Origin: Nitrospirota bacterium
GTDB lineage: Bacteria > Nitrospirota > Nitrospiria > Nitrospirales > UBA8639
Direction of reading: 5' to 3'
Assembly: GCA_029864405.1 (NCBI GenBank)
Contig: JAOTTP010000019.1
Span: 1-43,887, forward strand
Length of the DNA: 43,887 nucleotides
Below are positions 20,630 through 28,276 of this stretch, in pieces. Numbering within the stretch: the stretch's first letter is position 1; the number at the start of each line of letters is the position of its first letter. The notes below the pieces were generated by a model that saw only the letters and a list, made by a program, of their open reading frames with translations, made no database searches and was not told the origin of the DNA. A program made the position numbers and the translations under genes.

Positions 20630-21778
20630 CTACTGAACCGTCTGTTGAGACTGAAGATTGGGTTTCTCGGTTTCCTCGTGAGGAAATGTGAAATGGAAGG
20701 CTGTGCCGACTTGAGTATTGGATTCCACCCAAATGCGGCCGCCATGGAGTTCGACAATTTTCTTGCAGAGCGCGAGCCCAATGCCCGTGCCCTCAACCTG
20801 GCTTCCCGTATTCAAACGTTGAAACACGCCAAAAATTTTGTCAAATGATTCAGCAGGGATCCCTATGCCATTATCCGAGACGGTAATAATCCATGTGAAT
20901 CCTGATGAGCGTGCCGTTACATTGATCTGGGGTGGGTCTTCTCTCCGGAATTTTATGGCATTCCCAAGAAGATTTTGGAATAATTGATTAAGGAAGGTGC
21001 GGTTTCCAGAAATCGCTGGCAGCGAACCCACGCTAATGTTGGCGCTCGTGCAGCCAAGGGGAAATTCCATCTGCGCTACAATATCCTTTACCACGTGCTG
21101 TAATTCCACGGACTCAAAGCCATGGGAGCCACCACCGACGATGGCATAATCCAACAAGTCTTGAATGAATCGTTGCATATGCTGGGCACCCTTTTTGGCT
21201 CTTTCCAAATAATCCCGTGAGCGTTCAGTCAACTGATCATTGAGATCCATCTGGAGAAGTTCCAGGAATTTCGTGATACGACGTACTGGCGCTTGGAGAT
21301 CATGAGACGCGGTATACGCAAATTGTTCCAACTCTTTCTGGGAGCGTTCAAGTTCCGCCCGTTGTTTTTCATTGGTCCGGAGAAGCGACGATTTTTCAAT
21401 CGCTTTCGTGACGGCCCGGTAAATTCCCGTTGGGGTGAGTTTCCCCTTGACTAAATAATCGGCAGCACCGTTTTTCATGGCTTTGGTTGCCACGTCTTCA
21501 TTGCCTTGTCCGGTTAACATCAGGACGGGAAGAAACCGGCGACTGTTGTCTTGGGACAGAGACTCGATAAATTCAAGCCCATCCAACTCAGGAATTTGGT
21601 AGTCAAGTAACACGCAATCCGGGTGTTCGGTTTGACATAGTTCCAAGCCTTCGATGCTGGAGTCGGTCTCAATAATGCGAAATGGCTGATCGGCGTTCTG
21701 CTTCAAGAATCGACAGAGCATTTCTCGATCCTCAGCGCAGTCATCAATGATGAGGACGGTTGTGCTCCCCGAATTCAT
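20630..21778 (-). CDS. Hybrid receiver-histidine kinase
   Basis: The 382-residue protein has an N-terminal receiver domain (about 6-125: LIIDDCAEDRE, phospho-Asp in CVLLDYQIPELDG, Lys in LVKGKL), a coiled linker, a HisKA domain (His in FAYTASHDLQAPVRRITKF, about 155) and a HATPase domain (about 255-372: N-box LLGNAIKFR, VSDNGIGIP, GTGIGLALCKKIVELHGG). No membrane segment, so it is cytosolic. It overlaps the stop of the preceding receiver gene by 4 bp. Receiver-first kinases of this sort usually relay a phosphate from an upstream kinase; partner assignments are inference. Confidence 0.95.
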   Translation of the reverse strand: MNSGSTTVLIIDDCAEDREMLCRFLKQNADQPFRIIETDSSIEGLELCQTEHPDCVLLDYQIPELDGLEFIESLSQDNSRRFLPVLMLTGQGNEDVATKAMKNGAADYLVKGKLTPTGIYRAVTKAIEKSSLLRTNEKQRAELERSQKELEQFAYTASHDLQAPVRRITKFLELLQMDLNDQLTERSRDYLERAKKGAQHMQRFIQDLLDYAIVGGGSHGFESVELQHVVKDIVAQMEFPLGCTSANISVGSLPAISGNRTFLNQLFQNLLGNAIKFRREDPPQINVTARSSGFTWIITVSDNGIGIPAESFDKIFGVFQRLNTGSQVEGTGIGLALCKKIVELHGGRIWVESNTQVGTAFHFTFPHEETEKPNLQSQQTVQ

Positions 21779-22236
21779 TGCGCCCTCTCCATCTGTTCGG
21801 GAATAATGACGACCTCAAACCAATAGTCTCGTACGCGGGCCATGGCCTGGATGAATTTTTCGAAGTCTAACGGTTTTTGAATATAACTGTTGGCTCCTCG
21901 AGCGTAACAATCGTGAACATCGCGCTCATCAGCAGAGGTGGTGAGCACGACGATAGGAATAACTTTCAAGTCGGGATCCTTCTTAAGTTCTTCGAGGACT
22001 TCGCGGCCGTCGGTCCCCGGCATATTTAAGTCCAAGAATATAATCCCCGGAACCCATGAGGCGTCATGCTCGCAATAGGCGCCACGGCGATATAAATAAT
22101 CCAAAGCGTCATCGCCATCTGTGCAGTGGACAATAGGATTGTTCAGCCCTGCCATCCGCAAGCTTCGAACGGTGATTTCAAGGTCTTCTGGGCTATTTTC
22201 CACCAATAGAATTGGTCGACCAGGGACTCGTCCCAT
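21775..22236 (-). CDS. Rcp1-type single-domain response regulator
   Basis: The 153-residue product starts MGRVPGRPIL at 22236, with AAGGAG about 9 nt upstream and one base after the kinase stop. It is a receiver with the long beta-alpha insert of the cyanobacterial phytochrome regulator Rcp1 (ALDYLYRRGAY...), phospho-Asp in IIFLDLNMPGTDGREVLEEL, and Lys in IQKPLDFEKF. No output domain. It lies between a GAF-PAS kinase and a hybrid kinase, typical of a phosphorelay shuttle. Confidence 0.93.
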   Translation of the reverse strand: MGRVPGRPILLVENSPEDLEITVRSLRMAGLNNPIVHCTDGDDALDYLYRRGAYCEHDASWVPGIIFLDLNMPGTDGREVLEELKKDPDLKVIPIVVLTTSADERDVHDCYARGANSYIQKPLDFEKFIQAMARVRDYWFEVVIIPEQMERAQ

Positions 22237-22237
22237 G

Positions 22238-24247
22238 TCATGCACTCCTTTGTAACGTAAAGAAAAATGCGGTGCCCTCTCCCAGGGTCGATTCAACCCA
22301 CAGCTGTCCTCCATGTCGTTCGATCAATTTCTTGGCTATCGTCAGGCCCATTCCGGTTCCTCCTCCAAATTTTTCTCGTCCATGAAGCCGTTTGAAGAGT
22401 CGAAAAATCTGTGATACATGCGTTTCCTTGATGCCGATTCCATTGTCTTTGACAAAGAAGACGGGAACATCTGATGGAATGGCCTTCTTCTGAAAAAGAG
22501 GGTCACTTCCTTTCTGATACCCAATATGGATCCATTTTTCCTCTTTATCATTGTATTTTATGGCGTTGGTAATGAAATTTCGAAAAATCTCTCCCACCCG
22601 TATTGAATCGCAATAGATGGTGGGTAAAGGCTCTGGAGCATCGATGAGGATGCCTTGCTCCTTTAAGCTCACATCGAGAGAATCCAGGATTCCACCGAGG
22701 ATGTGGTCCAGATTGGTAGGTTTCATGGCCAATTCTGTTCGGCCGACCCGAGAAAAATAGAGGAGCGCGTCAAGTAATTCCTCCATCCGGCGCGATAAGC
22801 GCAGGATGGTTTGGCAGCGGGCTTTGGCATCCTCATTGAGAGACGGGCCATGGTCCTCGAGCAGGATTTTTGAATAATTAAATATCCCTCGTAGGGGTTC
22901 CTTGAGGTCATGGGAGGCAATGTACGCGAAATCATCTAAGTCTTTGTTGCTTTTTTCTAATTGGGTCATATGAGTGCGCAAAAGGTCTTCTGCCATTTTT
23001 TCTTTGGTGATGTCCCAATTCAACCCGATTATCCTGATCGCAGTGCCGTTGGATATCTGGTCGACGATCCCGGCTCCTTTGAGGTAATGCACGGATTGGT
23101 CTGGCCAGATGACTCGAAATTCGGTCGTGAATTCCTGTTCTCCCCGAATGGCATTGTGAAGGGTTGCCTCTGAAGCTTCTCGATCTTCCGTATGGAGAGC
23201 ATTAACCCAGGTGGCGTACGGTTCCTGTTTGGAATCAGGGGGCAGACCATATAAGGCATACATTTGGGAATCCCAGGTTAGTTCGTGCTTCCTTAGGTCC
23301 CACTCCCATATTCCGATATTGGCGGACTGCGTCGCTAATAACAATCGGTTTGATATTGCCTGAAGCCGTTCCTCACGGATTTTCCTTTCGCTAATATCGA
23401 AAACGGAGGCTAATACGAATGGCTCCTCGTCTATAGAAAGGGGGCTTAAGCCGATTTCAACGGGAAATTCCGAGAAGTCCTTACGGAGTCCATAGAGATC
23501 TTGTCCATTGCCCATACGACGCGGTTCCGGTGAGGCGAAGAAGGCTGTCCTCCCCGCAGGGTGGTGTTTCCGGAAACGTATCGGCACAAGAGTTTCAATG
23601 GATTGCCCCAGCAGTTCTTCACAGCTATACCCGAACTGCTGGGCGACCAGTTGATTGGCCAAGACGATGGTCCCCTGAGTATCAATCATGACCATACCGC
23701 TGGGGACCGCTTCCACGATGGATTGAAAATAGGATTTGCGTTGGTTGACGCGGAAGAGTTGCTGGCGTAATTCTAGTTGGGAAATGACCTGTCTGGATAA
23801 TGCGCCCAACGCCTGTCGTTGTTCTTGGGTCAGAGAACGGGGAATCTGATCAATGACGCATAATGTTCCTATGGCTTGCCCATCGGCTGTTTGCAAGGGT
23901 GCACCTGCATAGAACCGGATATGAGGGTCAGTGGTGACCAGGGGATTGTCAACGAAGCGAGGATCTTGTAAGGCATCAGGAATTTCAAACACTCCAGTTT
24001 CTAAAATGGCATGGGCACAAAAGGCGATGTCTCGAGGTGTCTGGGTGGCCGTGATCCCAATCTTTGATTTAAACCATTGACGATGGGCATCGATCAAACT
24101 GATGAGGGCAATCGGTGTTTGACAAATGTGAGCTGCTAGCATGGTCAGGTCATCAAACAACGCTTCCGGCACGGTATCTAAGAGTTGATACCGTTCGAGC
24201 GCGGCGAGACGCTGGACTTCATTGTGAGGCAATTGGGCTGTGATCAC
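22238..24247 (-). CDS. GAF-PAS-PAS sensor histidine kinase
   Basis: The 669-residue soluble protein has a GAF domain (about 20-165; [26 protein letters not shown]), two PAS domains with PAC ends (about 175-290 and 300-420), HisKA (phospho-His in [19 protein letters not shown], about 445) and HATPase (about 540-668; [38 protein letters not shown]). The GAF resembles the phytochrome-adjacent type, but I see no chromophore Cys motif that I can assert. GTG start with GGGAG 8 nt upstream. The HisKA/HATPase sequence is of the type found with Rcp1-like regulators, and one follows directly. Confidence 0.95.
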
Positions 24248-24510
24248 CTACTGGACTCCCGTAATAACATTGTTGTTCTCTTTCGGTTCATCTCCATTTC
24301 TTCTTGAAAAGTAACTCCCTTTGGGTGTGGTGGTGCAGGCCGGTGTTGGGATTTTTGCGGGGGGACTCAAGTGGGTCGTGACGTGTCCCGTTCTCCGGTT
24401 ACCTAAAGGGAATCGAATGGACCCAATGGCGTTCCCTTGCATGCCAGCCCTGGTGGCCCAGATTCGCCTTAAGCTTCTATTGGTTAGACCGATAACATTG
24501 ACGTAGCGTG
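24248..24510. other. Divergent intergenic region between two signalling operons
   Basis: No gene supported; the minus-strand open frame 24248-24631 runs through the riboswitch and lacks protein-like character. It must contain promoters for both operons. A weak plus-strand candidate is TTAAGC (24469-24474), 18 bp, TAACAT (24493-24498), placed just before the riboswitch. Confidence 0.4.
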
Positions 24511-24598
24511 AAAAGAGCAAACCATCCGTAAGGGTGGGACGCAAAGCCAAGGGACCTTCTTCGTCGTTCGTCATGGTTGAAGGTTTGCCAGGTTGCCA
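24511..24598 (+). promoter_or_regulatory. Cyclic-di-GMP-I (GEMM) riboswitch aptamer
   Basis: The plus strand shows the GEMM core: GAGCAAACCATCC, a GTAA tetraloop, GGGTGGGACGCAAAGCC, then a second stem closed by GGACCTTC and GAAGGTTTGCC, ending GGTTGCC. It matches the Vibrio cholerae Vc2 aptamer block by block (AAACCATTC-GAAA-GAGTGGGACGCAAAGCC and GGTAGGTAGCGGGGTTACC). Such RNAs bind cyclic di-GMP. A terminator 27 nt downstream makes transcription attenuation the likely mechanism. The controlled genes are the response regulator and kinases from 24868 onward. Confidence 0.92.
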
Positions 24599-24624
24599 CG
24601 GAATAAATTGTTGTGGTGAGGTTG

Positions 24625-24662
24625 CGCCCATCTTCCAGGAATGAGGATGGGCGTTTTTTTTT
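24625..24662 (+). terminator. Intrinsic terminator, riboswitch expression platform
   Basis: CGCCCATC (24625-24632) and GATGGGCG (24646-24653) form a perfect 8-bp stem over a 13-nt loop, followed directly by nine T. Its position after the c-di-GMP aptamer suggests ligand-dependent termination; whether c-di-GMP turns expression on or off cannot be read with certainty. Confidence 0.9.
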
Positions 24663-24768
24663 GATTTGGTGGTCGTCGTGCATATTTTGAATATAAAGGA
24701 TAGTGCAGTGATTCAGACGAAAGATACGGGGAAACTCGCGGGTGGACGACGGGTGATCGAAACGTCGT

Positions 24769-24784
24769 GGGCATCATGATGCCC
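24769..24784. promoter_or_regulatory. 16-bp perfect palindrome in the leader
   Basis: GGGCATCATGATGCCC is fully self-complementary. It lies between the riboswitch terminator and the first codon of the regulator gene. It could bind a dimeric repressor or activator, or fold as an RNA hairpin with a tight loop. No known regulator recognised. Confidence 0.45.
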
Positions 24785-24887
24785 TCCTGCTTTCTCCCGT
24801 TGGGTTCCCGAGAGACAACGAATCGCAACTGCAGCCGAAGTCATTTTTGGAAGGAGGGTTGTTCAATATGCTACGACATGCCCCCCA

Positions 24888-25313
24888 ATGGTTCTGATCG
24901 CAGAAGATAATTCTGATGACTGTCTCATTGCGATGCGAGCCTGGGAAGAAAGCCGTTTAGGGTTTGATGTGCGTTTTGTGCATGATGGTCGAGAGCTCAT
25001 GGATTATGTGTATCGTCGTCGAAAGTGGCATGGGTCGTTGGATCTTCCCTTACCGCAACTCATTCTTTTGGATTTAAATATGCCGCGAAAGGATGGGAGA
25101 CGGGTGTTGGAAGATCTCCAGGGTCATCCCGAATGGAGTCAGATTCCCATCGTGATTCTTTCAGGGTCTCGGCACCCACGAGATATTCAACAATCTGAAA
25201 TGTTAGGAGCCTATGATTTCATCACGAAACCTGAGACCTTTGACGAATATCAACGAATGATCACTCAATTAGGTCAAGCGGTGCTAGAGAAGAATAAGAG
25301 GCAATTCGCGTGA
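24888..25313 (+). CDS. Rcp1-type single-domain response regulator (start region possibly frameshifted)
   Basis: The 141-residue frame is a receiver of the Rcp1 type: acidic residues in IAEDNSDD, the YVYRRRKW insert, phospho-Asp in LILLDLNMPRKDGRRVLEDL, Lys in FITKPETF. The annotated ATG at 24888 has no ribosome site. A strong GGAGGG (24853-24858) instead serves an ATG at 24868 that reaches a stop after nine codons; one extra C in the six-C run at 24881-24886 would join it to this frame and give a normal N-terminus (MLRHAPP plus MVLIAEDN). Its stop overlaps the next gene by 4 bp. Function as phosphorelay shuttle is inferred. Confidence 0.9.
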   Translation: MVLIAEDNSDDCLIAMRAWEESRLGFDVRFVHDGRELMDYVYRRRKWHGSLDLPLPQLILLDLNMPRKDGRRVLEDLQGHPEWSQIPIVILSGSRHPRDIQQSEMLGAYDFITKPETFDEYQRMITQLGQAVLEKNKRQFA

Positions 25314-26479
25314 ACAATCCCACCGACAGGGACGGTAAGCTCAAAGTGTTGTTGATCGAGGATGACGAAGATGACGCGCTGATTACTCGGAGTCTTCTTG
25401 AAAAACTCTCGAATCCCCTCGTGGACTTGGAATGGGTTCCGTCCTATGCCGAAGGGCTTGAGCAGATCAAATCGCACCATCATGATATTGGCCTTTTGGA
25501 TTATCAACTTGGTTCACGGACTGGACTGGAATTGCTTCAGGAAGCCAAAAGCCATGGCCTGCATCTTCCCTTGATTATGTTGACGGGCCAGGGCAATGAA
25601 TCACTTGTGATGGATGCCTTGGAGTTGGGCGCAATCGACTATATTCCAAAGCGAATCATTTCCAGTGAAAGTCTCCAACGGGCTATTTGCCATGGGATCG
25701 AAAAGGCTCGTTTGCAGGCGGCAATAGCTGCCCATCAACGGGAGCTAGAAAAAACGAATCAAGAGCTGCAACGGAAAAATGAAGAAATTCAGCGTTTCTA
25801 TCATGTGGTTGCCCACGAATTGAAAACGCCGTTGACGGCCGCCTCAGAGTTTGTGGAGATTCTGCTCGAAGGGATTTCTGGATCGTTAACCGCAACCCAG
25901 GAAGAATACCTTCGGCTCATCCAGCGGTGTTGCGGTCATCTAAATCGTAATATCAATGACTTGTATGAAATTACACGCTTTGAAACCGGTAAGTTGAGCA
26001 TCCATCCTCAGTTGGGCTCATTGCCTGAGTTAATTGACTATGCGGTGAAGGTGTTCACTCCTGATGCGCAGGCAAAGGGCATTGCCCTGAACGTGTGCGT
26101 GGCACCTGATCTTCCACTTCTGGCAATCGATCCCCAACGCATTCGACAAGTGTTGTTGAATTTGCTAGGGAATGCGCTAAAATTTACTCAGAGGACAGGG
26201 AAAATCCTGGTCTCGGTGTGCGTCGATTCGTCTTGTGGAGGGAGGGTGCGCGTCTCGATTGAAGACACCGGGATTGGGATTGCTCAGGATCAGTTGGAAC
26301 GTATTTTTGAACGGTTATATCAGGTCAACGAAGACGCGTCTGCTTCCGCCTCTGGTTTGGGTCTCGGATTATTTATCTGCCGAGAAATTGTCAAGTTACA
26401 TGGTGGGACGATGATGGCCACAAGTGACTTGGGAAAAGGTAGCATTTTTAGTTTTACCCTGCCCTATCAGTCTGTATAG
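25310..26479 (+). CDS. Hybrid receiver-histidine kinase
   Basis: The 389-residue cytosolic protein begins with GTG at 25310, overlapping the previous stop. Domains: receiver (about 10-130; LLIEDDEDDALI, phospho-Asp in IGLLDYQLGSRTGLE), a coiled-coil linker (about 140-165; LEKTNQELQRKNEEIQR), HisKA (His in HVVAHELKTPLTAASEF, about 172) and HATPase (about 270-385; LLNLLGNALKFT, IEDTGIGIA, GLGLGLFICREIVKLHGG). It mirrors the pair at 20630-22236 on the other strand. Confidence 0.95.
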   Translation: MNNPTDRDGKLKVLLIEDDEDDALITRSLLEKLSNPLVDLEWVPSYAEGLEQIKSHHHDIGLLDYQLGSRTGLELLQEAKSHGLHLPLIMLTGQGNESLVMDALELGAIDYIPKRIISSESLQRAICHGIEKARLQAAIAAHQRELEKTNQELQRKNEEIQRFYHVVAHELKTPLTAASEFVEILLEGISGSLTATQEEYLRLIQRCCGHLNRNINDLYEITRFETGKLSIHPQLGSLPELIDYAVKVFTPDAQAKGIALNVCVAPDLPLLAIDPQRIRQVLLNLLGNALKFTQRTGKILVSVCVDSSCGGRVRVSIEDTGIGIAQDQLERIFERLYQVNEDASASASGLGLGLFICREIVKLHGGTMMATSDLGKGSIFSFTLPYQSV

Positions 26480-26523
26480 GAACTGATGTTTGTCTTTGAT
26501 GAGCCTCACCACCGGAGAACGAT

Positions 26524-26913
26524 ATGGAGAAGACACTGTTAATTGTGGAGGATGATGAAAACATTTCCAAGGCTCTTGAAGTTCGGCTGAGTGCCCGCGG
26601 GTTCAATGTTGTGACAGCCTTTGATGCGATCATTGGGATGCAAAAGGCGGTACAAATGATTCCTGATGCCATTGTGTTGGATATCACCTTGCCTGGGGGA
26701 AATGGGTTGGCCCTGGCCCAGCGATTAAAGGAGTCGGCCAAAACCAAGGAGATTCCGTTCATTTTCTTGACGGCGAGTAAGCAAGACGGCTTACGTCAAC
26801 AGGCCACCTCACTCGGCGCAGCGGCTTTTTTTGAAAAGCCGTATGATTTTGAATATCTTTTGGCGGCTATCCGGGCTGTCGTTGAACATCCTCATGCGCG
26901 ATTGTCGTTGTAA
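26524..26913 (+). CDS. Single-domain response regulator
   Basis: The 129 residues are one receiver domain: LIVEDDENIS at the start, phospho-Asp in AIVLDITLPGGNGL (about residue 53), Thr in FLTASK and Lys in FEKPYDF. No output domain. It is 44 nt downstream of the hybrid kinase on the same strand and probably in the same operon. Partner unknown. Confidence 0.93.
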   Translation: MEKTLLIVEDDENISKALEVRLSARGFNVVTAFDAIIGMQKAVQMIPDAIVLDITLPGGNGLALAQRLKESAKTKEIPFIFLTASKQDGLRQQATSLGAAAFFEKPYDFEYLLAAIRAVVEHPHARLSL

Positions 26914-26992
26914 CGCCTTCTCTATGATTGATCAACCCAGGCATCCTAGGAACCCCTCATTCTAAGTGAATCAATATATTCTTGGAGGATTC

Positions 26993-28276
26993 ATGACAGT
27001 TGGGATTAATGCAGATGTTGATAATGTTCGCGTCTTGCTGATCGATGATAGTGAAGACGATGCGATTATTGCTCGAGCCATGCTTTCCAGAGTCCGTGGG
27101 GTGATTTTCGAGGAAGAATGGGTTCCGACATTTGATGAGGGTGTCAGGAAACTTAAAGAAAATACCCATGATATTTGTCTTTTGGATTATTGCCTTGGCA
27201 AAGAAACGGGTCTTGATCTGTTGCGGGAAACCATTAAATTTGGATGCCGGGTTCCCATTATTATGTTGACGGGGACCAATAATCAGGAAATTGATGTCCA
27301 AGCGATCAAGCTGGGTGCCGCCGACTACGTGGTGAAAGGCGAAACCAATCCCGCCTTACTGGAGCGGGCTATTCGCCATGCTCGTGAGCGGAAAAAGGCG
27401 AGGACGGAACGCGAATTACTGAATCAACAGTTGGTCGAAAGTTCCCGCTTGGCGGGTATGGGAGAAGTGGCTTCGCATATCCTGCATAATGTGGGCAATG
27501 TGCTCAACAGTATCAATGTGTCAGTGGGGTTGCTCTCGCAATACCTTCACGAGATGCCGATTGACGATGTCTCACGCGTCGCTCATCTTTTCGAAGAGCA
27601 TAAGGAAGACGTTGGAGAATTTTTGACCTCTCATCCCAAGGGGAAGCGGATTCCCTTGTTTTTAACTCAAATAGGGACGCATTTGGGGCAGCATTTTACT
27701 GCCGCGAACAAAGAACTCGAGGGACTGGTTTCGCAGCTTGATCATGTCAATCAAATTATGGCCACGCAAAAGACACTTGCGAACGCGGCTGAGGTTGTGG
27801 AGCCAGTGATCTTAGGTGAATTGATAGAGCAAGCCCTGCTTATGAATCAGCCTGGATTTGAAACAGATCATATTGCGATCAAGCGGGAAATTTTCAATAT
27901 CCCACAAGTCATGATTGACAGGCATCAAGTCTTGCAAATTCTGACCAACCTCATTGGAAATGCCAAAGACGCGATGCAGGCTCAGGGGGGGGACTCTCAC
28001 CGATTAACTGTGCAAATGGTGAAGCATCCCGACCGGGAAGGGTTGGTGCGGATTCAAGTGAGCAATACGGGCATTGGGATATGTCCAGAGCATCTGACCC
28101 GGATCTTTGCCCAAGAATTTGGCGTTAAGAACCAGGGGTTAGGGCTTCATGCCAGTGCGTTAGCTGCGAAAAAAATGGGTGGTTCTCTCACGGCATGGAG
28201 TGCTGGAGAAGGGCGTGGTGCGACGTTTACCCTAGACCTGCCCATGAAGACTCTTGAGGTTATTGCACCTAATTAA
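26993..28276 (+). CDS. Receiver plus atypical histidine kinase
   Basis: The 427-residue protein starts at ATG 26993, where GGAGG lies 4 nt upstream; a longer frame to 26966 lacks a site. Domains: receiver (about 8-125; LLIDDSEDDAII, phospho-Asp in ICLLDYCLGKETGLD), a short coil, a dimerisation helix with the uncommon H-box GEVASHILHNVGNVLNSI (about 158-175), a long helical insert, and a HATPase domain (about 305-420; LTNLIGNAKDAM, VSNTGIGI, NQGLGLHASALAAKKMGG). The LHNVGN-type H-box belongs to a distinct kinase subgroup. Last gene of the riboswitch-led operon. Confidence 0.92.
   Translation: MTVGINADVDNVRVLLIDDSEDDAIIARAMLSRVRGVIFEEEWVPTFDEGVRKLKENTHDICLLDYCLGKETGLDLLRETIKFGCRVPIIMLTGTNNQEIDVQAIKLGAADYVVKGETNPALLERAIRHARERKKARTERELLNQQLVESSRLAGMGEVASHILHNVGNVLNSINVSVGLLSQYLHEMPIDDVSRVAHLFEEHKEDVGEFLTSHPKGKRIPLFLTQIGTHLGQHFTAANKELEGLVSQLDHVNQIMATQKTLANAAEVVEPVILGELIEQALLMNQPGFETDHIAIKREIFNIPQVMIDRHQVLQILTNLIGNAKDAMQAQGGDSHRLTVQMVKHPDREGLVRIQVSNTGIGICPEHLTRIFAQEFGVKNQGLGLHASALAAKKMGGSLTAWSAGEGRGATFTLDLPMKTLEVIAPN

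Follow-up and report, generated by a model that had tools for sequence, protein, structure and literature searches.

Can a riboswitch set the amount of a bacterial phosphorelay, and if so, through which ligand and in which direction? The question is raised by a locus in a 43,887-nucleotide (nt) stretch of DNA from a Nitrospirota bacterium (the window; contig JAOTTP010000019.1 of assembly GCA_029864405.1), in which an aptamer of the GEMM-I family, the class I riboswitches for cyclic di-GMP (c-di-GMP), heads an operon of four genes for receivers and receiver-kinases. We consider it probable, from the leader sequence and its predicted folds, that this GEMM-I switch sets the amount of the phosphorelay by transcription attenuation behind a FliA/WhiG-type promoter, with ligand turning the operon OFF and a second sigma factor gene forming a further layer; one predicted circuit would then link a phosphorelay both to a second messenger and to a flagellar-type sigma factor. 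An earlier reading of the letters alone (the sequence-only reading) had proposed a phosphorelay controlled by c-di-GMP: the riboswitch, the terminator and the link to the genes stand, but the assignment of c-di-GMP as ligand is supported only in part, given the A at 24516 and the A, C or G found there among orthologues. The FliA-type promoter, the predicted antiterminator with its OFF direction, the second sigma gene behind a GEMM-I aptamer, and the A at 24516 are additions to that reading. Judged by titles, the open-licence literature on Nitrospira, riboswitches and c-di-GMP yielded no riboswitch study of Nitrospira.

The aptamer and its conserved link to kinase genes

The core of the locus consists of the following elements.

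24506..24600, + strand: GEMM-I (c-di-GMP-I, RF01051) aptamer, 58.1 bits in cmscan
24624..24662, + strand: intrinsic terminator with a 12-pair stem (24624-24635/24643-24654), a 7-nt loop and a T run
24868..25313, + strand: stand-alone receiver, Rcp1-like (PF00072, 2e-16; RcpA and RCP1 among solved matches)
25310..26479, + strand: kinase with receiver, HisKA and HATPase_c domain matches (RecHK); in 11 other genomes an orthologue follows the aptamer
26524..26913, + strand: stand-alone receiver (PF00072, 1.6e-20)
26993..28276, + strand: kinase with receiver and HATPase_c domain matches and no HisKA match (RecHK2); best solved match LvrB

The aptamer named in the sequence-only reading was recovered by the RF01051 covariance model over its full length (1-87) at 58.1 bits, against a gathering cut-off of 35 (E 6e-9), and is the sole Rfam match at gathering level in the window (cmscan). 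It contains P2 with a GNRA loop and the conserved junction J2/3 (CCAUCC-GUAA-GGGUGG, GGGACGCAAAGCC), and 97.9% of P2 cells are paired across eight orthologues; for the P3 tetraloop receptor, the cmscan alignment shows a gap where the model has CUAA. The element shares with the RF01051 class its covariance model, three-way junction, GNRA loop and terminator platform, and differs from it in having A rather than G at the specificity base and in the gapped part of P3. The genome of the window (66% complete, 186 contigs, 2.9 Mb) has four RF01051 matches, five GGDEF matches and three EAL matches; no GGDEF or EAL domain was matched on the riboswitch contig, in agreement with what had been said of the window. 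For two of the four aptamers (L001 and L002) the Rfam variant family RF03167 (c-di-GMP-I-GGC) gives a higher score than RF01051 does.

Domain matches agree with the earlier description of four same-strand receiver and kinase genes. The link of aptamer to genes, which that description left to position and strand, was followed across relatives by tblastn of the operon proteins against GEMM-I loci: in 11 genomes (G000, that of the window, with G001, G005, G011, G012, G013, G040, G041, G042, G043 and G044) the aptamer lies just 5' of a RecHK orthologue of 53-100% identity, and a twelfth orthologous locus, L043, was recognised from its sequence. Both RecHK and RecHK2 occur at all 12 loci, and the full four-gene set in G000, G001, G005, G013 and L043; tblastn of the fetched GEMM-I loci did not detect the stand-alone receiver in G011 and G012, nor the first receiver in G040-G044, where RecHK is the first gene. 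Because the arrangement recurs in two genera of the family, chance adjacency of aptamer and kinase genes is unlikely.

Probable attenuation behind a FliA-type promoter

The intrinsic terminator of the sequence-only reading also proved to be real. Its 12-pair stem is followed by a T run that reaches 24662, its hairpin has a computed energy of -20.4 kcal/mol, and it was found in 8 of the 12 orthologues. Its 5' arm is able to pair instead with the aptamer.

24531..24544, + strand: aptamer strand that would form the antiterminator (P2 3' strand and J2/3, with A24539 bulged), from the predicted duplex
24622..24634, + strand: putative antiterminator partner, its 3' part being the terminator 5' arm, with conserved UUGCG (24622-24626)
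24595..24617, + strand: hairpin predicted for the ligand-free fold, in which it would sequester the aptamer 3' strand, from the minimum free energy structure of a transcript ending after the terminator 5' arm

The duplex of 24531-24544 with 24622-24634 has an energy of -19.1 kcal/mol (z -3.5) that 1 of 200 shuffles equalled, and a corresponding duplex occurs in 11 of the 12 orthologues (-14.8 to -22.4 kcal/mol, at +21 to +29 past the aptamer). Across the eight terminator-bearing orthologues, 97.1% of the 102 antiterminator cells are paired, versus 36.5-50.0% after sliding. The motif UUGCG has a mean majority fraction of 0.97, versus 0.53 in the spacer 5' of it; in four of the eight (G011, G012, G013 and G044) the stem of the terminator is predicted to begin at the last UUGCG base, and the terminator therefore leaves the other four bases unexplained. 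When RNA ending after the terminator 5' arm was folded for nine of the 12 orthologues, the antiterminator had a probability of 0.90-1.00 in all nine. Ligand binding requires the very aptamer strand that competes with the terminator, and ligand therefore probably shuts the operon OFF. The antiterminator of Cd1, by comparison, is described as pairing with residues 86-87 beside the pocket (PMC9262584), whereas the one predicted here uses P2 and J2/3. A wider alignment, covering 38 of 40 terminator-bearing leaders (L128 and L134 excluded), was inspected by eye and left uncounted.

On this model, a FliA/WhiG-type sigma factor would initiate the transcript just 5' of the aptamer. With no ligand, CGCAA in J2/3 would act as a toehold, pairing with nascent UUGCG as the RNA grows; the pairing would extend through the P2 3' strand and capture the terminator 5' arm, so that polymerase enters the operon. 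With ligand bound, P2 and J2/3 would be locked in the aptamer, leaving the 5' arm free to form the terminator.

The promoter to which this initiation is assigned matches the FliA consensus exactly.

24469..24495, + strand: sigma-28/FliA-type promoter, TTAAG-N15-CCGATAA, exact consensus match

It is the sole mismatch-free FliA-type match in the window; with two mismatches allowed there are four, equal to chance (shuffle mean 4.5). Exact matches number 3 in the genome of the window, versus 1 for the backward pattern, and 16 versus 6 over four genomes (G013 alone has 3 versus 3), and the pattern by itself is only modestly enriched. Position relative to the aptamer is more regular: 6 of these 16 sites stand 5' of a GEMM-I aptamer, and in all 11 orthologues scored the best promoter match lies 35-39 nt 5' of the aptamer, its score exceeding the 99% level of single-base shuffles in nine (the L043 promoter was read by eye only). 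The FliA consensus given for Bdellovibrio is TTAAG-N16-CCGATA (PMC3627812). Further exact FliA-type sites (L300, L302, L303 and L304, L306) precede genes for two conserved proteins, one exported and one small, the small one resembling a STAS-domain factor (both protein labels by eye).

A search with TIGR02479 found a FliA_WhiG match over the cut-off in nine of nine genomes, with two in the genome of the window (on contigs C74 and C152). A second match is present in eight of the nine, in each case starting 225-240 nt beyond the end of a GEMM-I aptamer; G005, a fragmented assembly, has no second match over the cut-off. The second FliA-type sigma factor may be the one that uses the promoter at 24469. 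In the genome of the window its gene occupies C152:2629-3612 (L002 from 1501), directly behind a GEMM-I aptamer and terminator. All eight leaders of the second sigma gene have a hairpin with T run correctly placed, and in four, including that of the genome of the window, the antiterminator pairing is matched by at most 2 of 100 shuffles. As both the operon and the sigma gene would stand behind such a switch, an increase in cyclic dinucleotide could shut the operon off at both of these levels.

Several observations weigh against this account. The orthologues are related sequences and not independent counts. G040-G043 have no terminator, and G040 also has no antiterminator pairing at the equivalent place; taken singly, G001 (15/200), G042 (9/200) and G044 (6/200) do poorly in the shuffle test. 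Covariation of the antiterminator is weak, its score being reached by 74 of 500 shuffles, because 8 of the 13 pairs are invariant. Promoter scores in G011 and G012 fall just under the 99% shuffle level, and the antiterminator pairing of the other four sigma-gene leaders is weaker, being matched by 7, 9, 15 and 27 of 100 shuffles. Finally, full-length folding, which covered seven terminator-bearing orthologues with a program that takes no ligand, gave antiterminator probabilities as different as 0.13 (window), 0.05 (G001), 0.57 (G013), 0.63 (L043) and 0.70 (G005), with 1.00 in G011 and G044; given this disagreement and the ligand-blind folding, the OFF model requires a kinetic, co-transcriptional decision together with ligand.

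Two candidate features were rejected or lacked support. Strong covariation of the antiterminator was not found, platform swaps among 11 orthologues costing about 1 kcal/mol on average. Masking of the Shine-Dalgarno sequence as the platform in the terminator-less G040-G043 was not supported, the duplexes ranking no higher than shuffled sequence (z 0.3-0.9), a result that adds to the difficulties just listed.

The ligand-specificity base and competing explanations

Which ligand would operate the switch turns largely on one base.

24516, + strand: A where Vc2 has G20, the ligand-specificity base; the cmscan alignment places it at model position 11

We take model position 11 to be Vc2 G20 (position 20 below), and A14 of the Geobacter cyclic GMP-AMP (cGAMP) riboswitch is presumably its equivalent as well. 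Residue 11 of Cd1 has been equated with Vc2 G20 (PMC9262584). A14 is in contact with the ligand in the Geobacter riboswitch, and GEMM-I that carries the mutation G20A binds cGAMP (PMC6274999); the base is nonetheless described as a selectivity factor and not a hard filter, cGAMP riboswitches binding c-di-GMP via a protonated adenine (PMC9262584). The window aptamer has no G at position 20, the usual c-di-GMP state, and has the A of the GEMM-Ib (cGAMP) state, whereas the other three aptamers of its genome have G at model position 11. The ligand would most likely be c-di-GMP or 3',3'-cGAMP, A at position 20 being compatible with either, and an RF01051 match should not be labelled c-di-GMP before the base at position 20 has been read.

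The operon aptamers are unusual in this respect. Among the 11 operon orthologues, position 20 is A in 4, C in 2 and G in 5 (L043 additionally has A), and among the other 126 family aptamers it is G in 116, A in 8, C in 1 and unresolved in 1 (Fisher p 3e-4, counting the unresolved row as not G and treating related sequences as independent). The 137 aptamers comprise 83 and 54, with G045:C129 (30.2 bits, below the cut-off) dropped and L043 outside the set; L015 was entered as G by hand, in keeping with its printed sequence, L164 as A by a looser rule, and L236 is the unresolved row. On the RecHK tree the operon aptamers require at least five changes if A, C and G are told apart, or three if the distinction is between G and not G. 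Elsewhere in the family, two aptamers about 3 kb apart (L123 and L019, G001:C1:1139945-1140021 and 1143021-1143097) differ solely at position 20, A versus G, and each precedes a similar exported protein. A C at this position occurs in three GEMM-I aptamers (L163 301-392, L210 and L223), and we know of no ligand described for it.

A source of cGAMP was sought in the genomes. No Hypr GGDEF was found among G001, G002, G005, G041 and G043, where 29 of 36 GGDEF matches were readable and all 29 keep Asp (Hypr has Ser); the other seven gave no readable motif, five of them being partial or split. In the 66% complete genome of the window, Asp is kept in four of five GGDEF matches, the remaining one being a degenerate GGDEF-EAL. 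The exact codon pattern of the Hypr signature gave four matches in 20 genomes of the genus, none in a GGDEF; of the two matches that it gave in a Geomonas control, one is a GGDEF with Ser. No SMODS cyclase was matched in six genomes (one model). Assignment of cGAMP from A20 alone was rejected as unsupported, no Hypr GGDEF or SMODS having been found in the genomes searched.

That the switch of the A20 genomes senses 3',3'-cGAMP in the manner of GEMM-Ib, and not c-di-GMP, is hence unlikely in our judgement: A and C stand at the bases that we take to correspond to positions 47 and 92, and position 20 is A as in Geobacter (PMC6274999), but no ligand source is visible in the genomes searched. The Geobacter riboswitches share the A at position 20 and belong to another phylum. 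We lean slightly toward a switch that still senses c-di-GMP, in which A20 or C20 merely lowers affinity and tunes the operon to a higher threshold than the cell's other switches; the failure to find a cGAMP cyclase, the alternation of A, C and G at one locus and the graded selectivity described for the base point this way, although in Geobacter A20 is a recognised cGAMP state. It is doubtful that the operon's orthologous riboswitch repeatedly changed ligand within one family, among c-di-GMP, cGAMP and something undescribed for C20, with promoter and operon kept. If true, it would be a natural experiment in riboswitch specificity among relatives of nitrite oxidisers, and would imply a cyclase or a ligand still to be discovered, the known cGAMP cyclases not being seen in these genomes. 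With the specificity base differing among orthologous aptamers, both specificity drift and the question of whether A20 alone equals cGAMP become directly testable.

The rival explanations extend to what the leader does. A bound aptamer might block termination, as in the cGAMP-sensing pilM switch of Geobacter, which is ON (PMC9262584); this is quite improbable for the window, where the terminator's competitor is the aptamer strand needed for binding, and binding should favour termination. Class I switches of C. difficile are likewise described as OFF, though one downstream gene is positively regulated (PMC6200980). Alternatively, the leader could be mainly a terminated small RNA or ligand sponge with little read-through, like the merRNA of Bdellovibrio, where the FliA regulon co-occurs with a c-di-GMP riboswitch RNA (PMC3627812). 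We regard this as very improbable, as conserved kinase genes stand directly 3' in 12 genomes, whereas merRNA is followed by no conserved reading frame (PMC3627812).

Known systems, operon genes and neighbours

The sequence-only reading overstated the novelty of c-di-GMP control over a phosphorelay, for which there is a precedent: in C. difficile the cmrRST phosphorelay operon sits directly behind the c-di-GMP riboswitch Cdi-2-2 (PMC6837544). That switch, as described there, is of class II, acts positively, and is accompanied by a sigma-A promoter and an invertible element, whereas the one here is of class I, is predicted to act negatively, follows a FliA-type promoter and heads kinases and receivers without output domains. 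A likeness for the second FliA gene is the C. difficile flgB operon (Cdi-1-3), a riboswitch-controlled operon that encodes SigD (PMC6200980) and in which a class I OFF switch likewise stands above a sigma-28-type factor; here, in contrast, the second sigma gene is separate, and a promoter of its likely type stands ahead of a further riboswitch. The attack-phase FliA regulon of Bdellovibrio also combines a FliA consensus with a c-di-GMP riboswitch RNA in one programme (PMC3627812), but merRNA is non-coding, whereas the aptamer here heads an operon.

Within the operon, the label 'Rcp1-type' given earlier to the first receiver is fair, since RcpA and RCP1 structures are among its ten best solved matches. 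Its open frame has an ATG at 24888, but a better ribosome site precedes 24868, and the start is probably nearer the latter. The stretch between these two starts (24868-24890) has one base fewer than its counterpart in G005, in which the two starts share a frame; this may be a sequencing error or a real change. The open frame of RecHK2 is 26966-28276, with a better start at 26993. The nearest named records carrying the kinase are metagenome-assembled genomes titled Nitrospiraceae bacterium UBA8639 (86%) and Nitrospirales bacterium OFTM42 (67%).

A second signalling set, at 20630-24247 on the - strand, lies divergently and back to back with the riboswitch operon, and consists of a GAF-PAS kinase, an Rcp1-like receiver and a receiver-kinase; all three of its genes are kept beside the riboswitch operon in L040, L051 and L056.

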